Virus record (IMG/VR): IMGVR_UViG_3300021963_000506
Span: 1-28,970 of that record
DNA from: a virus
DNA length: 28,970 nt
Strand: one strand, 5' to 3'
This document shows positions 4,341-28,783 of this stretch, piece after piece. A program made the position numbers and the translations under genes. Position 1 is the stretch's first letter. Each line of letters starts with the position of its first letter. Under the pieces are notes generated by a model. The model was not told the DNA's origin. It saw only the letters and a list, made by a program, of their open reading frames with translations, and did not search any database.

Positions 4341-4975
4341 TATTTTACCTTTTCATACATTACAGTATTAGTGTCACCTAACGCCCACTTAGAGTCTGTC
4401 TCAACAGACCATCGTTTTGTTGCAACTCTAAAATCTGGTTGTTTTAATTCTTTTGGATTGCTACTTGGTTCTAATATGATTAAACGATTATTTGGCTGAG
4501 CAGCAAACTGCCCATTATCACACTGAATGAAATTATAAGACTTGTGATCCTCGACATCTTCAGAAAACCCCGTATCAAGAATGTTAAAGTCAGGATGAGC
4601 AGAATCAACTGTAAAAAGATAAACACCATACATCCAATCTCCATTTTTAAGTTTGAATTTACACCTCATTGATTGAAGTTGCGCTTTCTTTATAACAGTT
4701 ATATCGTAAGAAAGACTATCCCAAAGTTGCAAGTAATCTAGAGGAAGAGGTTCTCCTTCGATAGGTTTCCAGCAATAGGCGTGTAATGGTAACTTATCAT
4801 ATAAAGCACCATAATTATTGAGATAAGATTCAATGCGAAATGCTTGACCTCTTAACGATTTAATACTTACCCACCAGCATGGTTCTAATTCATCATGACC
4901 TTTTTCAAAGTCGTAAAGAAACTCTCTACGAACATAACACTTAATGGGTGGTAGATTTGCTACTATATGCGCCAT
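4340..4975 (-). CDS. Conserved T4-like phage protein, 211 aa
   Basis: The start at 4975 is chosen because AGGA precedes it by about five bases and the N-terminus MAHIVANLPPIKCYVRREFL matches the family as I remember it from marine T4-like phages. An upstream extension to 5044 would overlap the aldolase far more. Conserved-looking blocks include WWVSIKSLRGQAFRIESYL, NYGALYDKLPLHAYCW and DNGQFAAQPNNR. No membrane segment or nucleotide-binding motif is visible. Function unknown. Its place after nrdB and the aldolase suggests co-expression with nucleotide metabolism. Confidence 0.85.
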   Translation of the reverse strand: MAHIVANLPPIKCYVRREFLYDFEKGHDELEPCWWVSIKSLRGQAFRIESYLNNYGALYDKLPLHAYCWKPIEGEPLPLDYLQLWDSLSYDITVIKKAQLQSMRCKFKLKNGDWMYGVYLFTVDSAHPDFNILDTGFSEDVEDHKSYNFIQCDNGQFAAQPNNRLIILEPSSNPKELKQPDFRVATKRWSVETDSKWALGDTNTVMYEKVK

Positions 4976-5592
4976 GTTTTTCCTGATGCCAATACGATTT
5001 GACAAATATGTTCTAATCTTTCTATATGCTCGAATGCTCTCCATGGAGATGAATCAATTGCTACAACTCCATGTCCTTTGATACCTACAATATCATAAGA
5101 AATGTTACCGTAGTCATCTAACTTTAAATTTTTATGACATTCATCCGCCAGTTCTTGACTAATTGGCGGAACATCAAGAACATTTGCTGCCACTCGAGTG
5201 TATCTGCTCAATTCTGGAAAGTCATTAACAATTGTACTAAGATCAATACCAGCATGCATAGCAGCAACACAATAAGTAGGATGGAAGTGCATAACAACAC
5301 GAACATCGTTACTGTGTTGCCCCATTGTTCGCTGTAAACCAAAGTGTAGAGGAATCTCTCCACTGGGTTTTAGGTTGGCGCTAATATCTGTATAAAATTC
5401 TTCTTGCCACAATAGTCCATGAATGCTGATCTTTTTGAATTGATCGGGTTGCAAAGTTTGCTTTCTTACGCCAGATGGAGTAACATAGAAATGATCGCGA
5501 TCATGATGACGAATAGAAGCATTTCCATCGCGACTAGTAATCCAATTTCGGCGATATGCCTCAACCATTGTTTCACATATAGTTTCTAACAT
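4963..5592 (-). CDS. Class II aldolase/adducin-family protein, 209 aa
   Basis: The ATG at 5592 overlaps the nrdB stop (TAATG), so translation is coupled. An upstream in-frame extension to 5622 is unlikely. Class II aldolase signatures are in order: the GNAS phosphate-binding loop with RDGNASIR, TPSGVRK, PSGEIPLH with the candidate catalytic Glu, the metal-site HFHPTY, and a third His in GIKGHG. The length fits fuculose- or ribulose-phosphate aldolases and epimerases of about 215 aa. It probably splits or epimerises a sugar phosphate using a divalent metal in the cytosol. The substrate cannot be deduced. Its position inside the ribonucleotide reductase operon hints at pentose or sugar-phosphate supply. 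Confidence 0.85.
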   Translation of the reverse strand: MLETICETMVEAYRRNWITSRDGNASIRHHDRDHFYVTPSGVRKQTLQPDQFKKISIHGLLWQEEFYTDISANLKPSGEIPLHFGLQRTMGQHSNDVRVVMHFHPTYCVAAMHAGIDLSTIVNDFPELSRYTRVAANVLDVPPISQELADECHKNLKLDDYGNISYDIVGIKGHGVVAIDSSPWRAFEHIERLEHICQIVLASGKTWRI

Positions 5593-6581
5593 TATGCAGC
5601 TTTTCCCCAAACATCGTTCCATGAACCTCCAAGAGCGCCTTTAGCATAATCAGTTACGCGGTTCTCAAAGAAGTTGCCATGAATCGGTGCATTAATCATT
5701 TCCTCTACCCAAGGTAAAGGATTCTTTTTAACTTTAAAGATACCCTTCATTCCAAGACTAATCAAACGACGATCAGCAATGTAGCGAATATAGTGTTTAA
5801 CATCTTCAGGCGATAGATCTTGCATTGGCCCCATAGCAAATGCAAGATCGATAAACTTATCTTCAAGTTCTACCATCTTCTCAGCAATGGTATATATCTT
5901 ACCTTTAAGTGAGTCATTCCAAATCTCTGGATTTTCTTTGATGTATTCTTTAAATAACTTAATCATAGACTCAGTGTGTTGAGTTTCGTCTACAATAGAC
6001 CACGTGACGATCTGACCCATGCCTTTCATCTTGCCATGACGAGGAAAGTTCAATAACATGATGAATGAACTAAACAATTGCATACCTTCAGTGAATGCTG
6101 AGAATACTGCAATATGTGTTGCTGTAGACTCGATCGTTGTATTCTTAGAAGATACATCCATAATATAATCGTGCTTATCTCTCATTTCCTGATAAGATAA
6201 GAATTCATTGTAGGTAGTATCAGGCAAACCAAGAGTTTCAATCAAGTGAGAATACGCTGCAATGTGCAGAGCTTCACGAGCTGCGAATCCAAGTAGCATC
6301 ATTCTTACTTCAGGTTGAGGAAAGTAAGGTAGATAATTGCGAACATAACCACCTGCTACATCGATATCACCTTGAGTAAAGAACCTAAAGATGTGCGTAA
6401 GAAACTTCTTTTCTTCATTAGTGAGTTTCTTTTTCCAATCTTTTACGTCTTCCGCCATTGGCACTTCGGTATGCAACCAATGACTTTGTTCATGCTTTAA
6501 CCAAGCATCATACGCCCAAGGATAGTTAAATGGTTTGAACGTATTACGATCTGATAGAAGATTACTTTTTTCTTTAACCAT
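5592..6581 (-). CDS. nrdB: Ribonucleotide reductase class I small subunit (R2)
   Basis: This 329-aa protein has all expected di-iron ligands: D72, E103, H106, E165, E199 and H202 (AREALH, FTEGMQ and DETQH motifs). Y110 is in the place of the radical tyrosine. The spacing aligns better with the eukaryotic/T4-like R2 type than with E. coli NrdB. It supplies the tyrosyl radical to NrdA for reducing ribonucleoside diphosphates. It follows thioredoxin with an eight-base overlap, and thioredoxin and NrdA lie just upstream, so reductase and reductant are co-expressed. All key residues are present, so it should be active. Confidence 0.95.
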   Translation of the reverse strand: MVKEKSNLLSDRNTFKPFNYPWAYDAWLKHEQSHWLHTEVPMAEDVKDWKKKLTNEEKKFLTHIFRFFTQGDIDVAGGYVRNYLPYFPQPEVRMMLLGFAAREALHIAAYSHLIETLGLPDTTYNEFLSYQEMRDKHDYIMDVSSKNTTIESTATHIAVFSAFTEGMQLFSSFIMLLNFPRHGKMKGMGQIVTWSIVDETQHTESMIKLFKEYIKENPEIWNDSLKGKIYTIAEKMVELEDKFIDLAFAMGPMQDLSPEDVKHYIRYIADRRLISLGMKGIFKVKKNPLPWVEEMINAPIHGNFFENRVTDYAKGALGGSWNDVWGKAA

Positions 6582-6834
6582 TTATAAACTCTCTTAATTG
6601 TTCTTGTGTTAAAGACCCGGTAATTCTTTTAACTTCTGTTGACTCTTCTGTACGACCCGACATCATTACGAGTGTAGGAACAGTTCTTATATTAAACTGT
6701 TTCGCCATCTCCATGTTGTCATCTATGTCAATTTCGATAAACTCAGTATCAAGATCATCGGCATTCTTGACAACTTCCGAAAGAGCTTTACATGGCCCAC
6801 ACCATGATGCTTGAAATTTGAATACGATTTTCAT
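6574..6834 (-). CDS. Thioredoxin
   Basis: The active site WCGPC is at residues 11-15, and the cis-proline motif TVPTL is at about 56-60. At 86 aa it is shorter than E. coli thioredoxin (about 108) because the first strand and helix are missing, as in phage thioredoxins and glutaredoxins such as T4 NrdC. It likely re-reduces the C-terminal CxxC of NrdA, which is encoded two genes upstream. It abuts the preceding gene and overlaps nrdB. Confidence 0.92.
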   Translation of the reverse strand: MKIVFKFQASWCGPCKALSEVVKNADDLDTEFIEIDIDDNMEMAKQFNIRTVPTLVMMSGRTEESTEVKRITGSLTQEQLREFING

Positions 6835-7023
6835 TTACCAGTGCCTTATAGTATTGGCTATAATAAAGAAACATGTGATAACATGTATTATAACCCAAAA
6901 TGTTTTTAGTGCTAAAGCTACGTGAGCTTCTTTAAGTGTAAGGATAGGAACATCTGGTCTATCCTTATCATCTTGTCCCATTAAATGACCAGTAGCTCTG
7001 GCCCATATCTTCCAGTACTTCAT
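6835..7023 (-). CDS. Small one-TM protein next to nrdA, 62 aa
   Basis: The polar N-terminal half includes YWKIWARATG. A C-terminal TM segment covers about residues 36-57 (ALKTFWVIIHVITCFFIIAN) and the protein ends in RHW. It is coupled to nrdA by a TAATG overlap. I recall similar small proteins beside nrd genes in marine T4-like phages, without assigned function. A membrane anchor for the reductase complex is conceivable but only inference. Confidence 0.75.
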   Translation of the reverse strand: MKYWKIWARATGHLMGQDDKDRPDVPILTLKEAHVALALKTFWVIIHVITCFFIIANTIRHW

Positions 7024-8831
7024 TATCCCTCACATGCAATACAATCGTTACCTTGAGCAATTGCAGCCATGTCAAGTTCTTTAATGATTTCTCTTTCTAC
7101 TTTCTTTGCAACCTTATCAGCTTTTCCAATCTTTTCTGAACGGCAATAATATAATGTCTTGAGCTTTTTCTTCCATGCTAGAAAATGAACACTGTGAATA
7201 TATTTAATATGCGAATCTGGTCGGAAGAACACATTCAGTGATTGTGCTTGATCTATATATTCTTGTCTATCAGCAGCATGTTCAATAACCCATCGTTGAT
7301 CGATCTCCATAGAAGTCTTAAATACTTCCTTGGTATGCTCATCCATCCATGTTAAGTGTTGCACAGAACCATCATTGGCAATAATTGAAGACCAAATATC
7401 ATTATAATCATTTGTTGATATCGTCTCACCATCACCTGCCAGATGCTTCTGAATAACTTTATCTAACCAGCGATTCTTATTTAGGTGAGAGCCTGATAGA
7501 GTGTCTTGGCGATAAGCGTTAGCCCGATAAGGTTCAATACTAGGAGAGGTATTGCCCATAAGAATGGAAGATGAAGCATTGGGAGCAATTGCCATAAGAT
7601 GGCTGAAACGATTGCCAGTACCTTTAGCGTCAGGAGCCTCACCTCTTTCCATTGCAAGACTCTTATTCGCTTCATCCAGCTTTGTACGAACATTTCTAAA
7701 AATCCTATTGTTTAATGACTTTGCGACCACGGATTCCCAGGCGATGCCGTTCTTCTGAAGAAGAGCATGAAAACCGAGGGCACCAATACCAATAGAGCGT
7801 TCCATAGAAGCAGAGTATCTTGCACGTGATATGCTGTCAGGAGCATTATCAATGAAGTACTGAAGAACGTTATCGAGCATCTCAGCGACGTCTTTAAGAA
7901 AAAGTTTGTCATCTTTCCAATCATCGTAGTACTCCAAATTCAAAGACGATAAACAGCATACTGCTGTACGCTCTTCATTAGTGGGAAGGATAATCTCTGA
8001 GCAAAGATTGCTTTGATTAACTCTAAGTCCCTTATCCTTAAGCCATTGTGGAAGCTTGCGATTAGACTCATCGATGAAGTGAATGTATGGCTCACCTGTC
8101 ATCATTCGCAATTCTAGGATTTGCTGCCATAAGTGTTTAGCCGATACGACTTCACGCACTTCATTGCTTGCTGGATCAATAAGTTCCCAATCGTCACTTG
8201 CATCAGGATCAATCATGCAGTGTTCTATAATTTCCATGAATTTATCTGGAATATTGATTCCATGATGTAAATTCAAAGTACGCATATTTTGATCGCCAGT
8301 GGGTTTCCTCATCTCAAGAAATGGGATAATATCAGGGTGAGAAATATCGAGGTATGCAGCATAACTGCCACGACGAGTCCTACCTTGTCGATAAGCGAGA
8401 GATGATGCATCATACATTTTAAGGTGAGGCATAACTCCAGTAGATTTATCATCCGCTGAGCGAATACCAAAGCCGATGCCGACACCACCTCCCAACATTG
8501 AGAGCCAATTCGTTTCAGATAGATTGTCAACTAGTCCCTCCGCAGTATCTTCGATAAAGTTAAGAAAACAAGAGATAGGAAGGCCGCGCTTAGAACGACC
8601 AAAAGATAGTATGGGAGTAGAATAACTAAGCCAATGATTACTGGAGTAATTATACAGACGCTGAGCATGATCTGGATTACTACCAAAAATACTCGAAACA
8701 TATGCGAATCTTTCTTGAGGAGATTGTTCATCATCCTTCATGTAACTTTCTTTAAGTCTAATTTTACCGAGTTCATCAAATAGATTATCGCGTGTATAAT
8801 CCACCTTGATGCCGTGTACGACGTCATCCAT
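7023..8831 (-). CDS. nrdA: Ribonucleotide reductase class I large subunit (R1)
   Basis: This 602-aa protein has the catalytic R1 signatures: the redox pair in LPISCF and AVCCLSSLN, the NLCSEI thiyl-radical loop, the TLYYCR radical-transfer tyrosines and a C-terminal CIACEG for reduction by thioredoxin. E. coli NrdA has 761 residues. Here the N-terminal ATP-cone that senses dATP is absent, so overall-activity feedback is probably lost. That would let the phage push dNTP pools high. AAGGA lies about five bases before the ATG. It follows thyX by 11 bases in the same operon. Confidence 0.95.
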   Translation of the reverse strand: MDDVVHGIKVDYTRDNLFDELGKIRLKESYMKDDEQSPQERFAYVSSIFGSNPDHAQRLYNYSSNHWLSYSTPILSFGRSKRGLPISCFLNFIEDTAEGLVDNLSETNWLSMLGGGVGIGFGIRSADDKSTGVMPHLKMYDASSLAYRQGRTRRGSYAAYLDISHPDIIPFLEMRKPTGDQNMRTLNLHHGINIPDKFMEIIEHCMIDPDASDDWELIDPASNEVREVVSAKHLWQQILELRMMTGEPYIHFIDESNRKLPQWLKDKGLRVNQSNLCSEIILPTNEERTAVCCLSSLNLEYYDDWKDDKLFLKDVAEMLDNVLQYFIDNAPDSISRARYSASMERSIGIGALGFHALLQKNGIAWESVVAKSLNNRIFRNVRTKLDEANKSLAMERGEAPDAKGTGNRFSHLMAIAPNASSSILMGNTSPSIEPYRANAYRQDTLSGSHLNKNRWLDKVIQKHLAGDGETISTNDYNDIWSSIIANDGSVQHLTWMDEHTKEVFKTSMEIDQRWVIEHAADRQEYIDQAQSLNVFFRPDSHIKYIHSVHFLAWKKKLKTLYYCRSEKIGKADKVAKKVEREIIKELDMAAIAQGNDCIACEG

Positions 8832-8842
8832 ATTTTTCCTTC

Positions 8843-9526
8843 TTATTGAGTTACGTAATTATTGGCTAGGGGAAATACTTCCGCAATAACCTTAGCACAT
8901 TCTAGTGCAACAAGTCTATGTTCTTTTTGTGTGCCATTACCTGAGCGTAGTTGGATAAAATGTACCCAGCTTCTAAGTGTTCCATTCATATATAGGCGAC
9001 TGACTGTATTACCTTCCGGAAGAACTGCTCGAGCTTGTTCTTTGGCAATACCATTATCTATGGCCCACTGATATGCGCTTTTTGCTTCTTCAATAACACG
9101 CTTTTGCATATTCTCCCATTGGTATGCAATGAATCTATCTTTATCATTACTAAGATCAAAATCTACACTATTCTGTCGATTCTTATTATCTTGGTAACGA
9201 GGTTCTCTAAGAACGAAATTCAGATCTTTAGTAGGATCTGCATATCGTTGAGAGAATTCTTGAAATGAAAAACTACGATGACGTAACATTTGACGTGCTA
9301 TGTCTCTCGTAGTTTGTATTTCAAGGCATGCTGACACCATTTCTAGGGGTGACCAGTGCTGGTGCTTAACCAAATAATTGATTAGCTTTTCTGATGTTTC
9401 TGTATTAAATTGATTGGAAGGATTTGATACTCGAGCACAAAAGGCAATGAGTTCTTGTACATCATAAAGACCTTCAGATATAAGCTCTTTAGAAGGTTTC
9501 GAAAAAGAAATTAATTTAACTTGCAC
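8843..9526 (-). CDS. thyX: Flavin-dependent thymidylate synthase ThyX
   Basis: The ThyX signature RHRx7S is at residues 82-92 (RHRSFSFQEFSQR). The 227-aa length and the C-terminal RSWVHFIQLR region also fit. ThyX methylates dUMP to dTMP using methylene-tetrahydrofolate, NADPH and FAD. The start codon is GTG, supported by GGAG six bases upstream. It is the first gene behind promoter P5, ahead of nrdA. T4 instead uses the unrelated Td enzyme. The only Td-family protein in this window is the hydroxymethylase at 26876..27640. Confidence 0.95.
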   Translation of the reverse strand: MQVKLISFSKPSKELISEGLYDVQELIAFCARVSNPSNQFNTETSEKLINYLVKHQHWSPLEMVSACLEIQTTRDIARQMLRHRSFSFQEFSQRYADPTKDLNFVLREPRYQDNKNRQNSVDFDLSNDKDRFIAYQWENMQKRVIEEAKSAYQWAIDNGIAKEQARAVLPEGNTVSRLYMNGTLRSWVHFIQLRSGNGTQKEHRLVALECAKVIAEVFPLANNYVTQ

Positions 9527-15785: not shown

Positions 15786-16232
15786 TTAATTTCCCTTCAA
15801 GGATGAAGTTAACATCCACGCGTGTTTCTTATGAGTATCGATTCTTTGAGCAATAAAATCTGCTAAACCTTGCTCATTAGAATCTGTTGCAAGTACAAAT
15901 GTTTTGTTTAGACAATCAATAACTTCATTGTTGTCAGCTACTAAACTATTTAGCATTTGTTTTACGTTATCTCCAACAATTAACGAGTTTTCGGTTAATG
16001 TTGAACTTGTATATAATTCTGTTAAACTTGGTGGAGCGTACTCTCCAAGCTTTCTAAGATTCTCTGCGAGTGGATCTACAGCGCCATATAGGTCCTCGTA
16101 TAGATCAGCAAAGAAATCATGATACTGGCTGAAGTGAATTCCTTCAACGTTCCAGTGAAATGCCTGAGCCTTGAAGTACATGACAAATGTATTTGCAAGA
16201 CAATTCTTTAGTGATAATCTTAATTCATCCAT
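15786..16232 (-). CDS. Dps/ferritin-like protein, 148 aa
   Basis: The Dps ferroxidase set is complete with exact family spacing: H26, H38, D53 and E57 (FHWNVEGIHFSQYHDF, then VDPLAENLRKLG). Dps proteins form 12-mers that oxidise Fe(II) with peroxide and can bind DNA. Here the usual Lys-rich DNA-binding tail is absent at the N-terminus. The gene abuts the large internal head protein and lies inside the virion block. It is therefore probably expressed late, and may be part of or packaged in the particle. It has no capsid targeting sequence. Confidence 0.9.
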   Translation of the reverse strand: MDELRLSLKNCLANTFVMYFKAQAFHWNVEGIHFSQYHDFFADLYEDLYGAVDPLAENLRKLGEYAPPSLTELYTSSTLTENSLIVGDNVKQMLNSLVADNNEVIDCLNKTFVLATDSNEQGLADFIAQRIDTHKKHAWMLTSSLKGN

Positions 16233-23488: not shown

Positions 23489-23510
23489 AAATCGCCCCGA
23501 AGGGCGATTT
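23489..23510 (-). terminator. Rho-independent terminator after the methyltransferase gene
   Basis: AAATCGCCC-TTCG-GGGCGATTT is a nine-pair stem with a TTCG tetraloop one base past the stop. It is followed by TAGTTTTATA, which supplies a broken T-run. It ends the DNA-modification operon and separates it from the late promoter immediately downstream. Confidence 0.85.
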
Positions 23511-23511
23511 G

Positions 23512-24696
23512 TTAGAAGAAGGACTCAAGACTTGGTATGTCTACCTTATCTCGAATCTCATAGGTCTTTTGGCCATTAAACTGATAGACGAGATTAGCAT
23601 TAATCTTATCTCTCTTGCCTTCAAGAGATGCCTTTATCTCATTTGCCATGTCTGTAGCAGTTCCTACGGGAACGTTCTGGCATACGTGATTTAGATATCT
23701 TGATGGATTTAGAAGCTCAAAGTCTTCTGGTAAACCCATGATACTCATAGCTTCACGATAGGTTAGGTATCTATCTTCAGTGGGATGAGTTAGCAAATTG
23801 GGATAGTGACCAACGAATGCTCCAATATGTCCCTTAGGAACAGTTGTTAGTCTTCGCATAATATTACCCTCACCTTGCAACTTAGTGAAGATTCTATCAC
23901 ATCGTTCTGCGGCTCGGTCAAGACCTTGTGACCTCATCCATTGACCAACCTCATCGTACTTCTTTCCTTTACGCTCAAGCCAATCCATTGCATTATCGGT
24001 TTTCTCGATAATATTATAGAAGTCTTTATGAGTGATACCACCTTCAAGTTCTTCTAAAACATAACGATACATAGGATCCCACTTGCTTGGAATCTTCTCG
24101 TTAGTAACTATTTGCTGTGAAGCATTCTTAGATACTCCATTGAACACACTCTCGATTGTATTGAGAGGTTTATCAAAGTAATTAAACAAAGGAACAGTCT
24201 TACCTTTCCAGAAGAAATAGAAAGACCTTTCACGGATCTGAGGAACGCCGTGCAACAGTGACTTAGTCCTATAGATAGACATAGTGTAACCATTACGTGT
24301 AGCAATATCGTGTAGTTTATCTACGATAGGCTTACCAAGCTTACCTGCAAATCCTGGCGCATTCTCTCCCCACATTACCATCGGCTTAATTTGTTCTAGC
24401 ACGTATGTTGTGGTAGTATACATCCATTCATTCGCTGCTGCATCTGAACTGGCGTATCCACTAAGCGACGACAAACCTGCGCAAGGACAAGTCGTACCAA
24501 CTACGTCAACGTAATGAGGATGCTTTCCACCTTCATCTAGCAAGATGTATGGAACATCTTTGTAATGATTTACGAGATGTGAATCATTAGAATTGAATGG
24601 ACTATACGAAAGAAGATAGTCTGGTTTACTTCCAAATGCGGCGGCTTGGCCGAGCGCTTGTCCACCAATAAGTGGTACGATAAAGGCATGCTTCAT
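23512..24696 (-). CDS. Divergent C5-cytosine DNA methyltransferase
   Basis: The catalytic motif IV is intact (TTCPCAGLS, Pro71-Cys72). So are ENAPGF (motif VI, 111-116), QIRERSFYF (motif VIII, 153-161), YREAMSIMGLPEDF (motif IX region) and CQNVPVGTATD (motif X). The AdoMet end is atypical: motif I reads VPLIGGQALG without the usual D/E-x-F-x-G-x-G start, and the acidic residue of motif II falls in LLSYSPFN with none present. The protein overlaps agt by four bases and ends at a terminator. It probably acts on cytosine C5 in DNA. Why a phage with hydroxymethylcytosine needs it is unclear. Confidence 0.85.
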   Translation of the reverse strand: MKHAFIVPLIGGQALGQAAAFGSKPDYLLSYSPFNSNDSHLVNHYKDVPYILLDEGGKHPHYVDVVGTTCPCAGLSSLSGYASSDAAANEWMYTTTTYVLEQIKPMVMWGENAPGFAGKLGKPIVDKLHDIATRNGYTMSIYRTKSLLHGVPQIRERSFYFFWKGKTVPLFNYFDKPLNTIESVFNGVSKNASQQIVTNEKIPSKWDPMYRYVLEELEGGITHKDFYNIIEKTDNAMDWLERKGKKYDEVGQWMRSQGLDRAAERCDRIFTKLQGEGNIMRRLTTVPKGHIGAFVGHYPNLLTHPTEDRYLTYREAMSIMGLPEDFELLNPSRYLNHVCQNVPVGTATDMANEIKASLEGKRDKINANLVYQFNGQKTYEIRDKVDIPSLESFF

Positions 24697-25898
24697 AGGT
24701 TATCTTTTATCTTTTGCATCATCTCTGCAAATGTATGCTGAGAATCTTGGTGTTGTTTATAAAATTCAAATGCCATATTACGATACTCATCTCGCATAAC
24801 CTGATCTTTAGACAACTTAGCAATTAAATCATAAGCTGGTTGCATATCATTATCATCGAGCCAAACGGTACCATTGTCCTTGCAATTGATTAGCTTATCG
24901 CCAAACTTACGATGAGTACAACGTTCGCCATAACTCTTACGGAAGACTGGAACTACGCCAGTGCATGCAACTTCGCAGTGAGTATATTCAATCGAACGCT
25001 CAATGAATCGTTCATCAAGGATTGATAATTGGTATCCAAATCCACATGCCGACATACGATAAAGCATCTGCTCGTTTATATATGGACCAAACACATAAGC
25101 TGGTTGATCCTTCTGCATGTTAATCGTATTGATGTCATCGGCAATGTGACCATGAAACTCCGATAATTCTCTGAAGGCAAGATACGCTGGTGATTTTTCA
25201 ATACCTTCGAACGTAGTAATACAACCATTAGGACGTAGGAATTCATTATGAAACTTAAACATTTGGACATAGCCTTTCCAACTTGTGGTACGGCCAATCC
25301 ATTTATGTTCGTTTGGTCTAGTCTGATCAATGTCAAGCCAGTACTTAGCTCTCACTGCATCGAAGTCCATTCCTGGTTGAAAGTTAAGAATAGTCTTAGA
25401 CTTATCTTCTTCAAGGAATCCAGCTAAACCTCCGCCATCAGTTACTGTGGAAACATACCTAGCGAAATCGTTATTAGTACTATGGCCAAAAAGAATGCTA
25501 GCTTTTCTAACAGACTCATTGATTGCGGCATTGCGCTTGATTGAAAGAGATGAGTGGTCATGTTGAATGAGAACAACTGGTTTGACAATTTCGTCTAGTG
25601 CTCTCTTAAACTGATTAATACATTCTTCACTATGACCTACCGATGGTAGACTATTGATGATGACTACATCAGCCTTGTTACAACCCTCGATCATCTTATT
25701 AGTTTCTTCAGGCTTTGCAAACTTCAATTGTACTACGTTCGAAACATCATGGGCATTCTTGCGAGTCCACGATTTATCTTTAGACGAGAAGACAACAAAG
25801 TCGTATCCATTCTTTGCCATCCATTTAGTTTGCTCAACAGTAAATTTAGTGACACCGCATCCTTCAATACCGCGTCCCATAATGATTGCGACTTTCAT
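24693..25898 (-). CDS. agt: Alpha-glucosyltransferase for hydroxymethylcytosine DNA
   Basis: The 401-aa protein follows T4 AGT (400 aa) block by block: RGIEGCGVTKFTVEQ, IQHDHSSLSIKRN, KWIGRTTSWKGYVQMF, EGIEKSPAYLAF, MSACGFGYQLS, IEYTHCEVACTGVVPVF and QHQDS. T4 AGT transfers glucose from UDP-glucose to hydroxymethylcytosine in DNA with alpha linkage. The ATG at 25898 overlaps the preceding stop (ATGA), and an upstream extension is unlikely. It lies in one operon with dCMP hydroxymethylase and dCMP deaminase, which supports the substrate. Confidence 0.93.
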   Translation of the reverse strand: MKVAIIMGRGIEGCGVTKFTVEQTKWMAKNGYDFVVFSSKDKSWTRKNAHDVSNVVQLKFAKPEETNKMIEGCNKADVVIINSLPSVGHSEECINQFKRALDEIVKPVVLIQHDHSSLSIKRNAAINESVRKASILFGHSTNNDFARYVSTVTDGGGLAGFLEEDKSKTILNFQPGMDFDAVRAKYWLDIDQTRPNEHKWIGRTTSWKGYVQMFKFHNEFLRPNGCITTFEGIEKSPAYLAFRELSEFHGHIADDINTINMQKDQPAYVFGPYINEQMLYRMSACGFGYQLSILDERFIERSIEYTHCEVACTGVVPVFRKSYGERCTHRKFGDKLINCKDNGTVWLDDNDMQPAYDLIAKLSKDQVMRDEYRNMAFEFYKQHQDSQHTFAEMMQKIKDNL

Positions 25899-26452
25899 TC
25901 TTCTTCGCTCCATTCTCCAGTTTTATTTCGCTCTGCAGCAGCATCTTCTCCGTAAATTTCATCGGCATGAGCATCGCATACGGTTCGGTGCCAGCCTTGA
26001 TAATAAGTACGACCAGGAGAACCACATTGTTCACAGGTACGATAGCTCATATGCTCTGCAAACGAAATATAATTATAGTGCTCGTCTGTGCCACCTTCAA
26101 CATAGAATCTAAGTCCGCCAAACTTTTCTTTTACTTGAGATGCAACAGGCACTAATTCTTTTTGTCTTTCCATTTCTAGACGACGTTCTTCAACTTCTTC
26201 AGCTGTAATTGGCTTACCATCTTTCCAAGGCCAACTACCACTCGTGTCATAGTATTCTTTTATGTGTTCGTATCTATCTTTAGCGTATTGATATTTTGAA
26301 GTTAGTTTAGAACACAATATGTCAATGATATTATACCATCCATTGCCGCAATCGAAACCCCAGCACATTGCAGTGTGAGTCATTGGCGCATGACGATTCT
26401 TAAATATCAAAGGATATTTAGCGCATAGTGCTTCATCTAGTTCTTGTTTCAT
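25895..26452 (-). CDS. Conserved Cys-rich phage protein, 185 aa
   Basis: The ATG at 26452 has AAGGA eight bases upstream and starts MKQELDEALCAKYPLIF. Conserved-looking features are MTHTAMCWGFDCGNGW, FGGLRFYVEGG, and a Cys cluster (TCEQCGSPGR, then TVCDAHADE) that would bind zinc. I recall relatives scattered through phages without function. It sits between dCMP deaminase and agt, with ATGA coupling to agt, so it may take part in the modification pathway. That is context only. Confidence 0.8.
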   Translation of the reverse strand: MKQELDEALCAKYPLIFKNRHAPMTHTAMCWGFDCGNGWYNIIDILCSKLTSKYQYAKDRYEHIKEYYDTSGSWPWKDGKPITAEEVEERRLEMERQKELVPVASQVKEKFGGLRFYVEGGTDEHYNYISFAEHMSYRTCEQCGSPGRTYYQGWHRTVCDAHADEIYGEDAAAERNKTGEWSEEE

Positions 26453-26469
26453 TTCAATATTCCTTACAA

Positions 26470-26922
26470 TTAAGACTGAATCCATTCATATTTTACACCG
26501 GTTTCATCAAACATACTACATGTATTAGTCCATGACTCTGTCCAGATATCTGGTACGGCATCATCTGTGATCACTGTTACATTCTCAATTCCCACTTGAA
26601 TGATACCCTTTGCGCATTCTGAGCAGATAGGTAAACCATATACGTATAGCGAAGCGCCATCTAGTGATACGCCATTGAATGTTGCGTTATAGATTACATT
26701 CATTTCTGCATGAACAACAAGACGATACTTTGTAGGTCTATCAGCATATCTATCTATTGAATCTAGTATTCCTCGCGGAAACCCATTATAACCTTGTGCT
26801 AAAATCTGGCCTTTAGAACCTACTGCAACTGCACCAATCTTTCTACTTGGATCTTTACTCCAAGTAGAAACTTCTTTAGCCAGAGATAAATAACGACTTT
26901 GCCAATTCTTCGCGTTTGTCAT
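26470..26922 (-). CDS. cd: dCMP deaminase
   Basis: The zinc and catalytic motif VVHAEMN (H71, E73) and PICSEC (C100, C103) are the cytidine/dCMP deaminase signature. The usual PCxxC is here PICSEC, with Ile before the first Cys. AAGGA five bases before the ATG fixes the start even though it overlaps gene 42 by 47 bases. The enzyme turns dCMP into dUMP, feeding ThyX and lowering unmodified dCMP beside the hydroxymethylase. At 150 aa it is shorter than T4 Cd (193 aa). Confidence 0.93.
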   Translation of the reverse strand: MTNAKNWQSRYLSLAKEVSTWSKDPSRKIGAVAVGSKGQILAQGYNGFPRGILDSIDRYADRPTKYRLVVHAEMNVIYNATFNGVSLDGASLYVYGLPICSECAKGIIQVGIENVTVITDDAVPDIWTESWTNTCSMFDETGVKYEWIQS

Positions 26923-27640
26923 ATTCTTCCTTAGTGATACTCAATTCGCGTGTTTTAACATAATGATCAACAAGATAGAACTGACGCTCATAAATGTGAA
27001 GTGAACCGGCGTTCCATATGATCTCGCCTCGATTATAAAATTTTCCACGATAAGATAGTTCTTGTACTACCTGTTCTAGTACATAAAGTTGCCATGCGTA
27101 GTCATTACGATAACCGGCCCATGCATCATTGCTTCTCATGTTAACAACTGCATATACTCTTCCGTCACGAATCAAGTATTGAACTGTATTAGTACACATG
27201 AAGTCTGATCGACCAGCCTTGTTATGATCACCCCACATCGTAGGACGTGTGTAAATCATAGTTGCACGACGAGAATCTGGACGATCTTCAAGTTCAGTTA
27301 CAACATGAAGAAACTGATTATTGTTTTCGCCTGAATAGATACACCATCCATAATTAGAATTGATATAACCATCTTTATCAGCCACTTGTTTCCAGATAGC
27401 AGGAGGTCCACCGGGAATATCATTTACGTTCAGTGACATAGACTTATACCAGTCGAGTTCTCGTTGAACGTAATCTTCATTCACTGTACCAAAGATAAGA
27501 GGTGAATTAGCCCAAAAGCTAACACCCATGATCTCGATAGTTTTGACACCAGACTTATCAGTTACAAACTTACCTTCACGATATAACCGCGCAAATTCTG
27601 TACGAATATCATGTACAGTCAGTCTAGAAACACCCATCAT
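26876..27640 (-). CDS. 42: dCMP hydroxymethylase (T4 gene 42 type)
   Basis: Belongs to the thymidylate synthase superfamily and closely follows T4 gp42: DKSGVKTIEIMGVSF, VQRELDWYKSMSL, INSNYGW, DFMCTNTVQYLIRD with catalytic Cys149 (Cys148 in T4), and MRSNDAWAGYRNDYAW with Asp180 (Asp179 in T4) that selects cytosine. It makes 5-hydroxymethyl-dCMP from dCMP with methylene-tetrahydrofolate. It starts at an ATG coupled to the preceding stop. Another ATG follows immediately. Length 254 aa versus 246 in T4. Confidence 0.95.
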   Translation of the reverse strand: MMGVSRLTVHDIRTEFARLYREGKFVTDKSGVKTIEIMGVSFWANSPLIFGTVNEDYVQRELDWYKSMSLNVNDIPGGPPAIWKQVADKDGYINSNYGWCIYSGENNNQFLHVVTELEDRPDSRRATMIYTRPTMWGDHNKAGRSDFMCTNTVQYLIRDGRVYAVVNMRSNDAWAGYRNDYAWQLYVLEQVVQELSYRGKFYNRGEIIWNAGSLHIYERQFYLVDHYVKTRELSITKEEYDKREELAKSLFISG

Positions 27641-28134
27641 TCTTCGAATCTCCCTGTTGGAATATATTTTCCAACTGCATCTTCCTGTGCTACTACACCT
27701 TCAAATTGGGCAATTGTATTTCGTTTTTGGGGTACCGCATCAATACGGAATTTAGTAGGATACAAATCTGTAGTTGGATGTGTTGCTTTACTAGTACGAC
27801 GATTAAAGATGTCCTTACCCATTTCTTGACCATCAATATCGCCACGCATATATGCAACAAGGAATGAAGCATAGTTAATCATATCAATCGCCGAGTCTTC
27901 GACTGATTCAAAATTAACTTTACCACCTTGCTCCATAGTTTCAAGTACTGAATACATGCGAAGCATCTTACCATTGATCGTATCTAGAATAGTATAAACG
28001 CCACGCGGATAGTGATCAGCTTGGCGTACACGACTCAATGGATTCTGATAGTCTTGGCCTTTGCGTTCTTGAAGTTGAGCAGCTTCCATCAGGATGTTTG
28101 CTGATTCGCGACTAAATTGTTTTCCTTCTTTCAT
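27637..28134 (-). CDS. DUF1599-like nucleotide-modification-associated protein, 165 aa
   Basis: The ATG at 28134 has GAGGA five bases upstream. An upstream TTG opening is not needed. The motif set QERKGQDYQNP, then KMLRMYSVLETM, then VEDSAIDMINYASFLVAYM is what I recall for the helical, MazG-like domain DUF1599 (nucleotide-modification-associated domain 1), common in phages with modified bases. Its enzymatic role is not established. The position directly before gene 42 fits handling of modified or unmodified dNTPs. Confidence 0.75.
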   Translation of the reverse strand: MKEGKQFSRESANILMEAAQLQERKGQDYQNPLSRVRQADHYPRGVYTILDTINGKMLRMYSVLETMEQGGKVNFESVEDSAIDMINYASFLVAYMRGDIDGQEMGKDIFNRRTSKATHPTTDLYPTKFRIDAVPQKRNTIAQFEGVVAQEDAVGKYIPTGRFEE

Positions 28135-28135
28135 A

Positions 28136-28783
28136 TTATTCCTCTTCTTTAACAAAATTTAAATCATCGTAATATTCTTTAGTACGAGTTTCCATGCTTC
28201 TGATTATAACACAATCTCCACGTTTAGAAGCAGTAAAATGATCATAATAATTATTAGTAGCCTTTTTATCATTGCGATAAAGACTAGGCGTCCAGTAGTT
28301 ATCAAACGTTTTTGGATTAATTACTAGACTAAAATTGATTCCATAGTGATCTGGAAATTCATCAACATAACCAGTTACTAAAGCGTTAAGCTTTAAAGCA
28401 TGCTTTCTGAACGTACCAACTTGGGTTTGCTTCATTGAAAACCACTTACCAATCATGCGTTTGAATTCTAGTTTGTAAACATCTGGATGACGATAATGGA
28501 CTACATCATACATAAAACTTTCTTCATTGCGGTGATTCCATAAGTTAGGATTTCGTTCCGATAATTCTCCAACACTTAATAGAACCGATTCTAACGCAAA
28601 TTCGCCTGCAATTCTAGAACAATTACGATAAACTTCTTCATAACTACGACCTTGTCGATTACGAATAGGACATGAATAGATGTCATCAGCCATTGGCTTT
28701 ACATAAGCATCTACGGCTTGTTTAGAAACTTTAATGTATTCATTATCGCGAAGTACGCGAGCAAGTTCACTGATGTAACTCAT
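28136..28783 (-). CDS. Hypothetical protein, 215 aa
   Basis: A soluble, charged protein starting MSYISELARVLRDNEYI, coupled to the upstream stop (ATGA). Blocks such as YVKPMADDIYSCPIRNRQGR, RNCSRIAGEFALES and YGINFSLVINPKTF are visible, but none that I recognise as a family. No TM segments or obvious nucleotide-binding motif. It is the second gene of the modification operon in this window, so a linked function is possible but unsupported by motifs. Confidence 0.7.
   Translation of the reverse strand: MSYISELARVLRDNEYIKVSKQAVDAYVKPMADDIYSCPIRNRQGRSYEEVYRNCSRIAGEFALESVLLSVGELSERNPNLWNHRNEESFMYDVVHYRHPDVYKLEFKRMIGKWFSMKQTQVGTFRKHALKLNALVTGYVDEFPDHYGINFSLVINPKTFDNYWTPSLYRNDKKATNNYYDHFTASKRGDCVIIRSMETRTKEYYDDLNFVKEEE

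Follow-up and report, generated by a model that had tools for sequence, protein, structure and literature searches.

A 5-hydroxymethylcytosine operon of an uncultured phage and its conserved, possibly repurposed C5-methyltransferase-like protein

The window analyzed in this study, a 29-kb fragment of a virus genome (IMG/VR record IMGVR_UViG_3300021963_000506; 28,970 nt), comes from an uncultured T4-like phage and carries on its minus strand a run of seven open reading frames (ORFs) between 28783 and 23512, nearly touching or overlapping, which encode in this order the protein u215, a DUF1599-like protein, a dCMP hydroxymethylase (HM), a dCMP deaminase, the protein u196, a DNA alpha-glucosyltransferase (AGT) and a protein with the fold of C5-cytosine methyltransferases (C5-MTases), herewith designated MT. 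A gene set for glucosylated 5-hydroxymethylcytosine (hmC) is by itself of an already-known kind, but here the hmC operon includes a conserved and apparently repurposed C5-MTase. We consider it an even question whether MT is a repurposed enzyme that acts on hmC or leftover cytosine by the Cys-C6 chemistry of C5-MTases without ordinary methylation from S-adenosylmethionine (AdoMet), and we lean slightly to the view that it is not an ordinary AdoMet methylase.

Genomic context, family and conserved residues of MT

The context of MT was analyzed for 65 distinct loci with at least 5 kb of upstream DNA, HM being scored within 9.5 kb. HM was detected near 64 of these loci and the deaminase near 59, while none of the 75 control loci, which encode canonical viral C5-MTases, carried HM nearby. 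After the reverse search seeded with HM, MT was found in 33 of 42 loci. The canonical control and the HM-seeded search rule out a chance linkage between MT and HM, and the MT family occurs almost only beside hmC operons. The gene directly before MT is AGT in most loci and otherwise a TAGT, a BGT-like glycosyltransferase of GT-B type (family C20) or a member of family C82. Two arrangements follow MT: UvsX, C13 and a DnaB-like helicase in one, a clamp with its loader in the other. Since the flanking genes vary on both sides, MT keeps its place while its neighbours change.

The AlphaFold2 model of MT, based on a 33-sequence alignment (mean pLDDT 87.9), has C5-MTases as its closest solved structures, namely M.HaeIII (1dct; VIA Z 24.4 over 274 residues), DNMT1 and M.HhaI. 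The fold and motifs IV (PC), VI (EN) and VIII (QxRxR) of MT are those of C5-MTases; its sequence matches PF00145 (4.5e-14; 53 bits, cut-off 22) and stays below the cut-off of NCBIfam TIGR00675 (dcm; 28 bits versus 100.65). When 31 canonical sequences were placed in one tree with the MT homologues, the latter, those of cyanophages and Pseudoalteromonas phage XG4 among them, formed one clade (support 100/100) on a long stem, its two most distant members having long branches. Comparison with the relative in locus L005 gave dN of 0.033 and dS of 0.97 (dN/dS about 0.03), and MT is thus under strong purifying selection. Each of 8 long records with MT carries a single PF00145 gene. Among the isolates of the phage collection, homologues were found only in cyanophages S-TIM5, S-TIM54, S-TIM61 and S-TIM66 and in phage XG4 (30-32% identity), all with the PL(I/V)GG motif and the Cys. 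A bacterial origin was rejected, because the one genome scan gave MT only in ten contigs of metagenome-assembled genomes, which were taken as binned phage DNA, and no cellular source of MT was found. Searches of open-licence papers, a part of the literature, brought up no account of C5-MTase homologues tied to dCMP hydroxymethylase.

For comparison of motifs, 72 MT homologues (non-redundant at 85%) were set against 72 canonical C5-MTases of viral or Rhodobacteraceae origin, numbered after what we take to be the reference sequence of M.HhaI; the matches to solved structures are consistent with this numbering and with the motifs. The catalytic residues C81, S85, E119, N120, Q161, R163 and R165 are invariant in both groups, and P80 is kept in 71 of 72 MT sequences; in the window MT, the catalytic residues are Cys72, Glu111-Asn112 and Gln153-Arg155-Arg157. 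In contrast, conserved positions of the AdoMet site carry other residues. F18 (69/72 canonical) is changed to V or I, A19 to P, G20 (71/72 canonical) to L and N304 (69/72 canonical) to Q in every one of the 72 MT sequences, while G303, present in all canonical sequences, is C in 71 of them. The ribose-binding acid, E40 or D (71/72 canonical), is not conserved, and F79 is changed to C in 70 sequences and Q82 to A in 71. MT therefore lacks the AdoMet-site set formed by F18, G20, E40 and N304 of HhaI or their equivalents. An independent profile-profile alignment mapped PLIGG of MT onto AGLGG. The new residues are fixed and show no drift, and dN/dS is low, which points to a rebuilt pocket and not to a decaying gene.

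Just after MT, loci L011 and L012 (L012:6638-8060) carry a gene for a 343-aa protein and, over 115 aa, part of the MT C-terminus in a second copy; in L012, UvsX and the helicase look intein-split.

Genes for hydroxymethylation and glucosylation

The features of the gene run are listed in Table 1. The first-pass annotation, made from the sequence alone, had described a gp42-type hydroxymethylase, a dCMP deaminase, a DUF1599-like protein and a T4 AGT homologue as a complete-looking set in one coupled operon ending in a terminator. All four genes are present, but the list had left out u196 and MT, both lying inside the stretch that it covered.

Table 1. Features of the hmC gene run in the window
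Feature	Position	Strand	Evidence
u215, 215-aa protein without assigned function, head of gene run	28136..28783	-	ORF
DUF1599-like / MazG-related protein, probable dNTP (dCTP) pyrophosphohydrolase	27637..28134 (ORF to 28155; ATG 28134)	-	PHROG
dCMP hydroxymethylase (HM), gp42 type	26876..27640	-	PDB 1b49, T4 active-site residues
dCMP deaminase	26470..26922	-	PF00383, phrog_174, PDB 7fh4
u196, C-terminus CxxC zinc-ribbon-like	25895..26485	-	ORF
AGT	24693..25913 (true start probably ATG at 25898)	-	PF11440, PDB 1y6f
MT, last gene of unit	23512..24696	-	PF00145, model, motifs
Terminator-like hairpin after last gene	23489..23510	-	9 pairs, 5 GC, tetraloop, T-rich tail

HM is homologous over its whole length to the solved T4 gp42 (1b49; E 4.8e-89; 57% identity), and C148, D179 and E60 of the T4 enzyme correspond to C149, D180 and E61, including both the catalytic Cys and the Asp that is Asn in thymidylate synthase, as first read. 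The deaminase was likewise borne out by its matches to PF00383 (1.2e-17), phrog_174 for dCMP deaminase (2.2e-38) and PDB 7fh4 (7.5e-27). AGT matches PF11440 along the whole length (6.2e-94; 315 bits, cut-off 25) and the T4 enzyme (PDB 1y6f; 1.9e-107) with 43% identity, and all six of H114, D115, R204, K209, E306 and E311, which we take to be the functional residues of T4 AGT, are identical. Homology and the conserved active-site residues of these enzymes make synthesis of hydroxymethyl-dCMP followed by alpha-glucosylation the straightforward reading; we hold hmC synthesis to be very probable and alpha-glucosylation of hmC by AGT to be probable, so that DNA with alpha-glucosyl-hmC, as had been proposed, is the likely product. 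Such a set had been called unusual in non-enteric T4-like phages, and this is true for isolates, in which AGT is found in 627 records, mainly enteric, but does not hold for uncultured phages, among which the operon is common.

With respect to precursor supply, the DUF1599-like protein gave only a weak match to PF07659 (E 0.025, below the Pfam cut-off), while its PHROG matches were better (phrog_1485, 1.6e-14; phrog_18404, 1.1e-13). Since phrog_18404 is shared with C8, a MazG-like neighbour in related loci, a nucleotide pyrophosphohydrolase is suggested, which would likely be the stand-in for the T4 dCTPase gp56. The DUF1599-like protein was found in 48 of the 65 related loci and MazG proteins near 53, and these proteins appear to replace gp56 in most relatives. 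Homologues of gp56 and of the T4-type dNMP kinase gp1, which the first-pass annotation had proposed to look for, were searched in seven long MT records, i.e., six relatives of 114-167 kb and phage XG4; gp56 was detected in XG4 only and gp1 in none of them, and both were found in the T4-like record L400 used as a control. These searches thus do not support the first-pass description of the hmC set as complete.

As to the operon, the overlap of neighbouring ORFs, with the MT ATG and the AGT stop sharing 4 bases, and the hairpin just past the MT stop codon (23510-23489; AAATCGCCC-TTCG-GGGCGATTT, then the T-rich tail) agree with one coupled unit ending in a terminator. Scanning of the window gave no more terminator sites than in shuffled sequences, and the hairpin stands out by its position; the promoter scan also gave no more sites than shuffles. 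The overall explanation, in which the entire run is an operon for hmC hypermodification and its last gene a repurposed C5-MTase, is in our estimate evenly poised. Pfam and PHROG searches with u215 gave no match, and about 10 related loci have a u215 homologue beside the operon; u196 gave no significant match in Pfam, PHROG and NCBIfam. The same phage carries genes for NrdA, NrdB and a flavin-dependent thymidylate synthase (ThyX) at 5592-9526 and, as unusual cargo, a ferritin/Dps-like protein (15786-16232) and a class II aldolase/adducin-domain protein (4963-5622).

The genes before MT suggest that the sugars may differ among the relatives. The best VIA matches of C20 are T4 BGT (Z 15.5) and AGT (13.7), near those to other GT-B enzymes, with weak Foldseek matches, and C20 is often accompanied by UDP-galactopyranose mutase. 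In six loci with C20 and C40 before MT (L069, L077-L080, L083), the BGT-like glycosyltransferase (phrog_14998) stands beside this mutase, and the combination suggests DNA with galactofuranosyl-hmC. In L039, L040, L041 and L051, a TAGT-type glycosyltransferase, UDP-glucose dehydrogenase and NAD epimerase were found beside dCMP deaminase, with no TET seen, suggesting that hmC is decorated there with a uronic acid or a pentose. Before MT in L058 (2960-7260) are a myo-inositol-1-phosphate synthase look-alike, an FkbM-like methyltransferase, a protein with the 5-hmdU kinase helical domain and C82, possibly for another hmC decoration. Between deaminase and glycosyltransferase, L049 (154-540) and about 23 related loci carry the 128-aa protein C14, without match in Pfam and PHROG, whose VVGMNPS motif, judged by eye, is similar to uracil-DNA glycosylases.

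Proposed role of MT and rival explanations

In the proposed pathway, the DUF1599/MazG-like protein would remove dCTP, the deaminase would convert dCMP into dUMP and HM would convert dCMP into hydroxymethyl-dCMP; hydroxymethyl-dCTP would be incorporated into DNA, and AGT would transfer alpha-glucose from UDP-glucose to hmC. MT is supposed to flip out hmC (or leftover C), with attack of Cys72 on C6, and the resulting 5-methylene or carbanion intermediate would be used for another exchange at C5 in place of methylation by AdoMet. Three candidate reactions may be ranked in the order (a) swapping of the hmC hydroxyl for another small nucleophile, giving a second hypermodification, (b) addition of a one-carbon unit to leftover C, and (c) removal of the one-carbon unit from hmC at chosen sites; each of them, taken singly, is at best rather improbable. 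C5-MTases have latent activities of this sort: an engineered enzyme couples thiols to hmC and M.HhaI hydroxymethylates DNA (PMC7176277), and C5-MTases were reported to dehydroxymethylate hmC without AdoMet (PMC11347137). With its covalent machinery kept, its donor pocket rebuilt and hmC synthesis encoded alongside, MT would fit an enzyme that performs one of these reactions natively. The broader proposal, that MT founds a phage enzyme family employing the covalent catalysis of C5-MTases on hmC without AdoMet, for exchange of the hydroxyl or for addition or removal of the hydroxymethyl group at chosen sites, is offered tentatively, as somewhat less likely to be right than wrong.

Several observations weigh against a repurposed MT. 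Asp54 is conserved in 68 of the 72 MT sequences at the strand end where D60 of HhaI binds adenine and might be its equivalent; a cofactor containing adenine, perhaps AdoMet itself in a different pose, thus stays conceivable, and this is our main reason for caution. The alignment of motifs II and III could be off by a position or two, and the filling of the AdoMet site by Leu9, Cys339 and Gln340 is putative. Under candidate (a), the hydroxyl that MT would replace is also the target of AGT, so that the two enzymes would be competitors. In addition, 9 of the 42 HM loci, two of which (L400 and L402) resemble enteric T4-like genomes, lack MT in the 9 kb around HM, and T4 is also without it, indicating that glucosyl-hmC as such can be made in the absence of MT.

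The kept Asp54, along with the complete fold, the full catalytic set and a PF00145 score well above its cut-off, might be explained if MT is a divergent but ordinary AdoMet-dependent C5-MTase, which acts on leftover unmodified cytosines or host DNA and still binds AdoMet through its altered motif I. We regard this as unlikely, though to be taken seriously, because positions near-fixed in canonical enzymes (F18, G20, G303, N304) are fixed otherwise in all or nearly all MT sequences, the acid of E40 is not conserved, and the TIGR00675 score falls far below its cut-off; moreover, C5 of hmC is already occupied and little substrate would be left for a methylase, yet MT is found almost only in hmC phages. 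The constant position of MT, always beside a glycosyltransferase and followed by the UvsX/DnaB-like helicase or clamp and clamp-loader genes, would agree with a catalytically idle helper for DNA binding or base flipping that serves the glycosyltransferase or the replisome, but the adjoining glycosyltransferases are unrelated or only distantly related to each other, and a mere scaffold has no need of Cys72, Glu111, Arg155 and Arg157, invariant in all 72 sequences, making such a helper improbable. Equally improbable in our judgement is a plain T4-type glucosyl-hmC operon with MT as a passenger methylase of no special role: the T4-like set does suffice for glucosyl-hmC in T4, which has its own Dam methylase near gene 56, but a passenger would hardly show linkage to HM in all but one of the loci, a fixed position while glycosyltransferase and downstream genes change, and such strong purifying selection.

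In the accepted view, a hydroxymethylase and a glycosyltransferase are all that hmC phages require, and in many uncultured phages the conserved third enzyme MT goes with the hmC set, whichever the sugar. If MT acts on hmC, phage DNA chemistry would gain an undescribed base or an hmC editor, the phages a further protection from restriction and from defences directed at hmC, and hmC labelling a new tool; if the family is indeed as proposed, a reaction that until now has been observed only in vitro, as a side activity, would have its natural use there. MT can be tested directly in the isolates S-TIM5 and XG4.

Comparison with known systems

The T4 pathway (gp42, cd, gp56, gp1, AGT and BGT) is closest to the window in its hydroxymethylase, deaminase and AGT, with the active sites of HM and AGT kept. 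It differs in that the window genes are compact in one operon without BGT, that MazG/DUF1599 proteins stand instead of gp56 and gp1 was not detected in the long relatives, and that an extra C5-MTase-like gene lies between the glycosyltransferase and what in the relatives are replication genes. Among the isolates with MT, XG4 has HM and a gp56 homologue just after MT, with no AGT match, while in S-TIM54 AGT lies far from MT. The gene annotated as 'ThyA' near MT of S-TIM54 (L002:12114-12956) has, by motif reading, Asp in place of the pyrimidine-binding Asn of thymidylate synthase (RSNDMATGVPLD), and may encode dCMP hydroxymethylase. The TET-type phage pathway, consisting of C5-MTase, TET and TAGT, is similar in that glycosyltransferases of the TAGT type occupy the slot before MT in some relatives, but hmC of the MT phages would come from dCMP hydroxymethylase; a search of the 8 long MT records for TET/JBP (PF12851), made without a positive control, gave no match.

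Canonical C5-MTases such as M.HaeIII, M.HhaI and DNMT1 share with MT the fold and motifs IV, VI and VIII, and differ in the AdoMet positions of motifs I and X, which are replaced in MT, and, for the viral enzymes, in the lack of linkage to hmC genes. The C5-carboxymethyltransferase CmoX of Synechococcus phage S-B43, in which the position of N304 is Arg, accepts carboxy-AdoMet (Cx-SAM), for which it keeps Phe-25, Glu-47 and Asp-69, and has Arg-350 and an SPPC motif (PMC12783734; PDB 8yf3). MT, by contrast, carries Val/Ile, lacks a conserved acid, and shows Gln340 and the motif (T/V)CPC. CmoA (TIGR00740) was absent from the 8 long MT records in a search with positive control, and identification of MT as CmoX was rejected on account of the motif, the Gln340 and the absence of CmoA. 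The two proteins are nevertheless alike in that both combine the C5-MTase fold in a phage (VIA Z 22.3) with an altered N304 position, which in CmoX serves DNA hypermodification.

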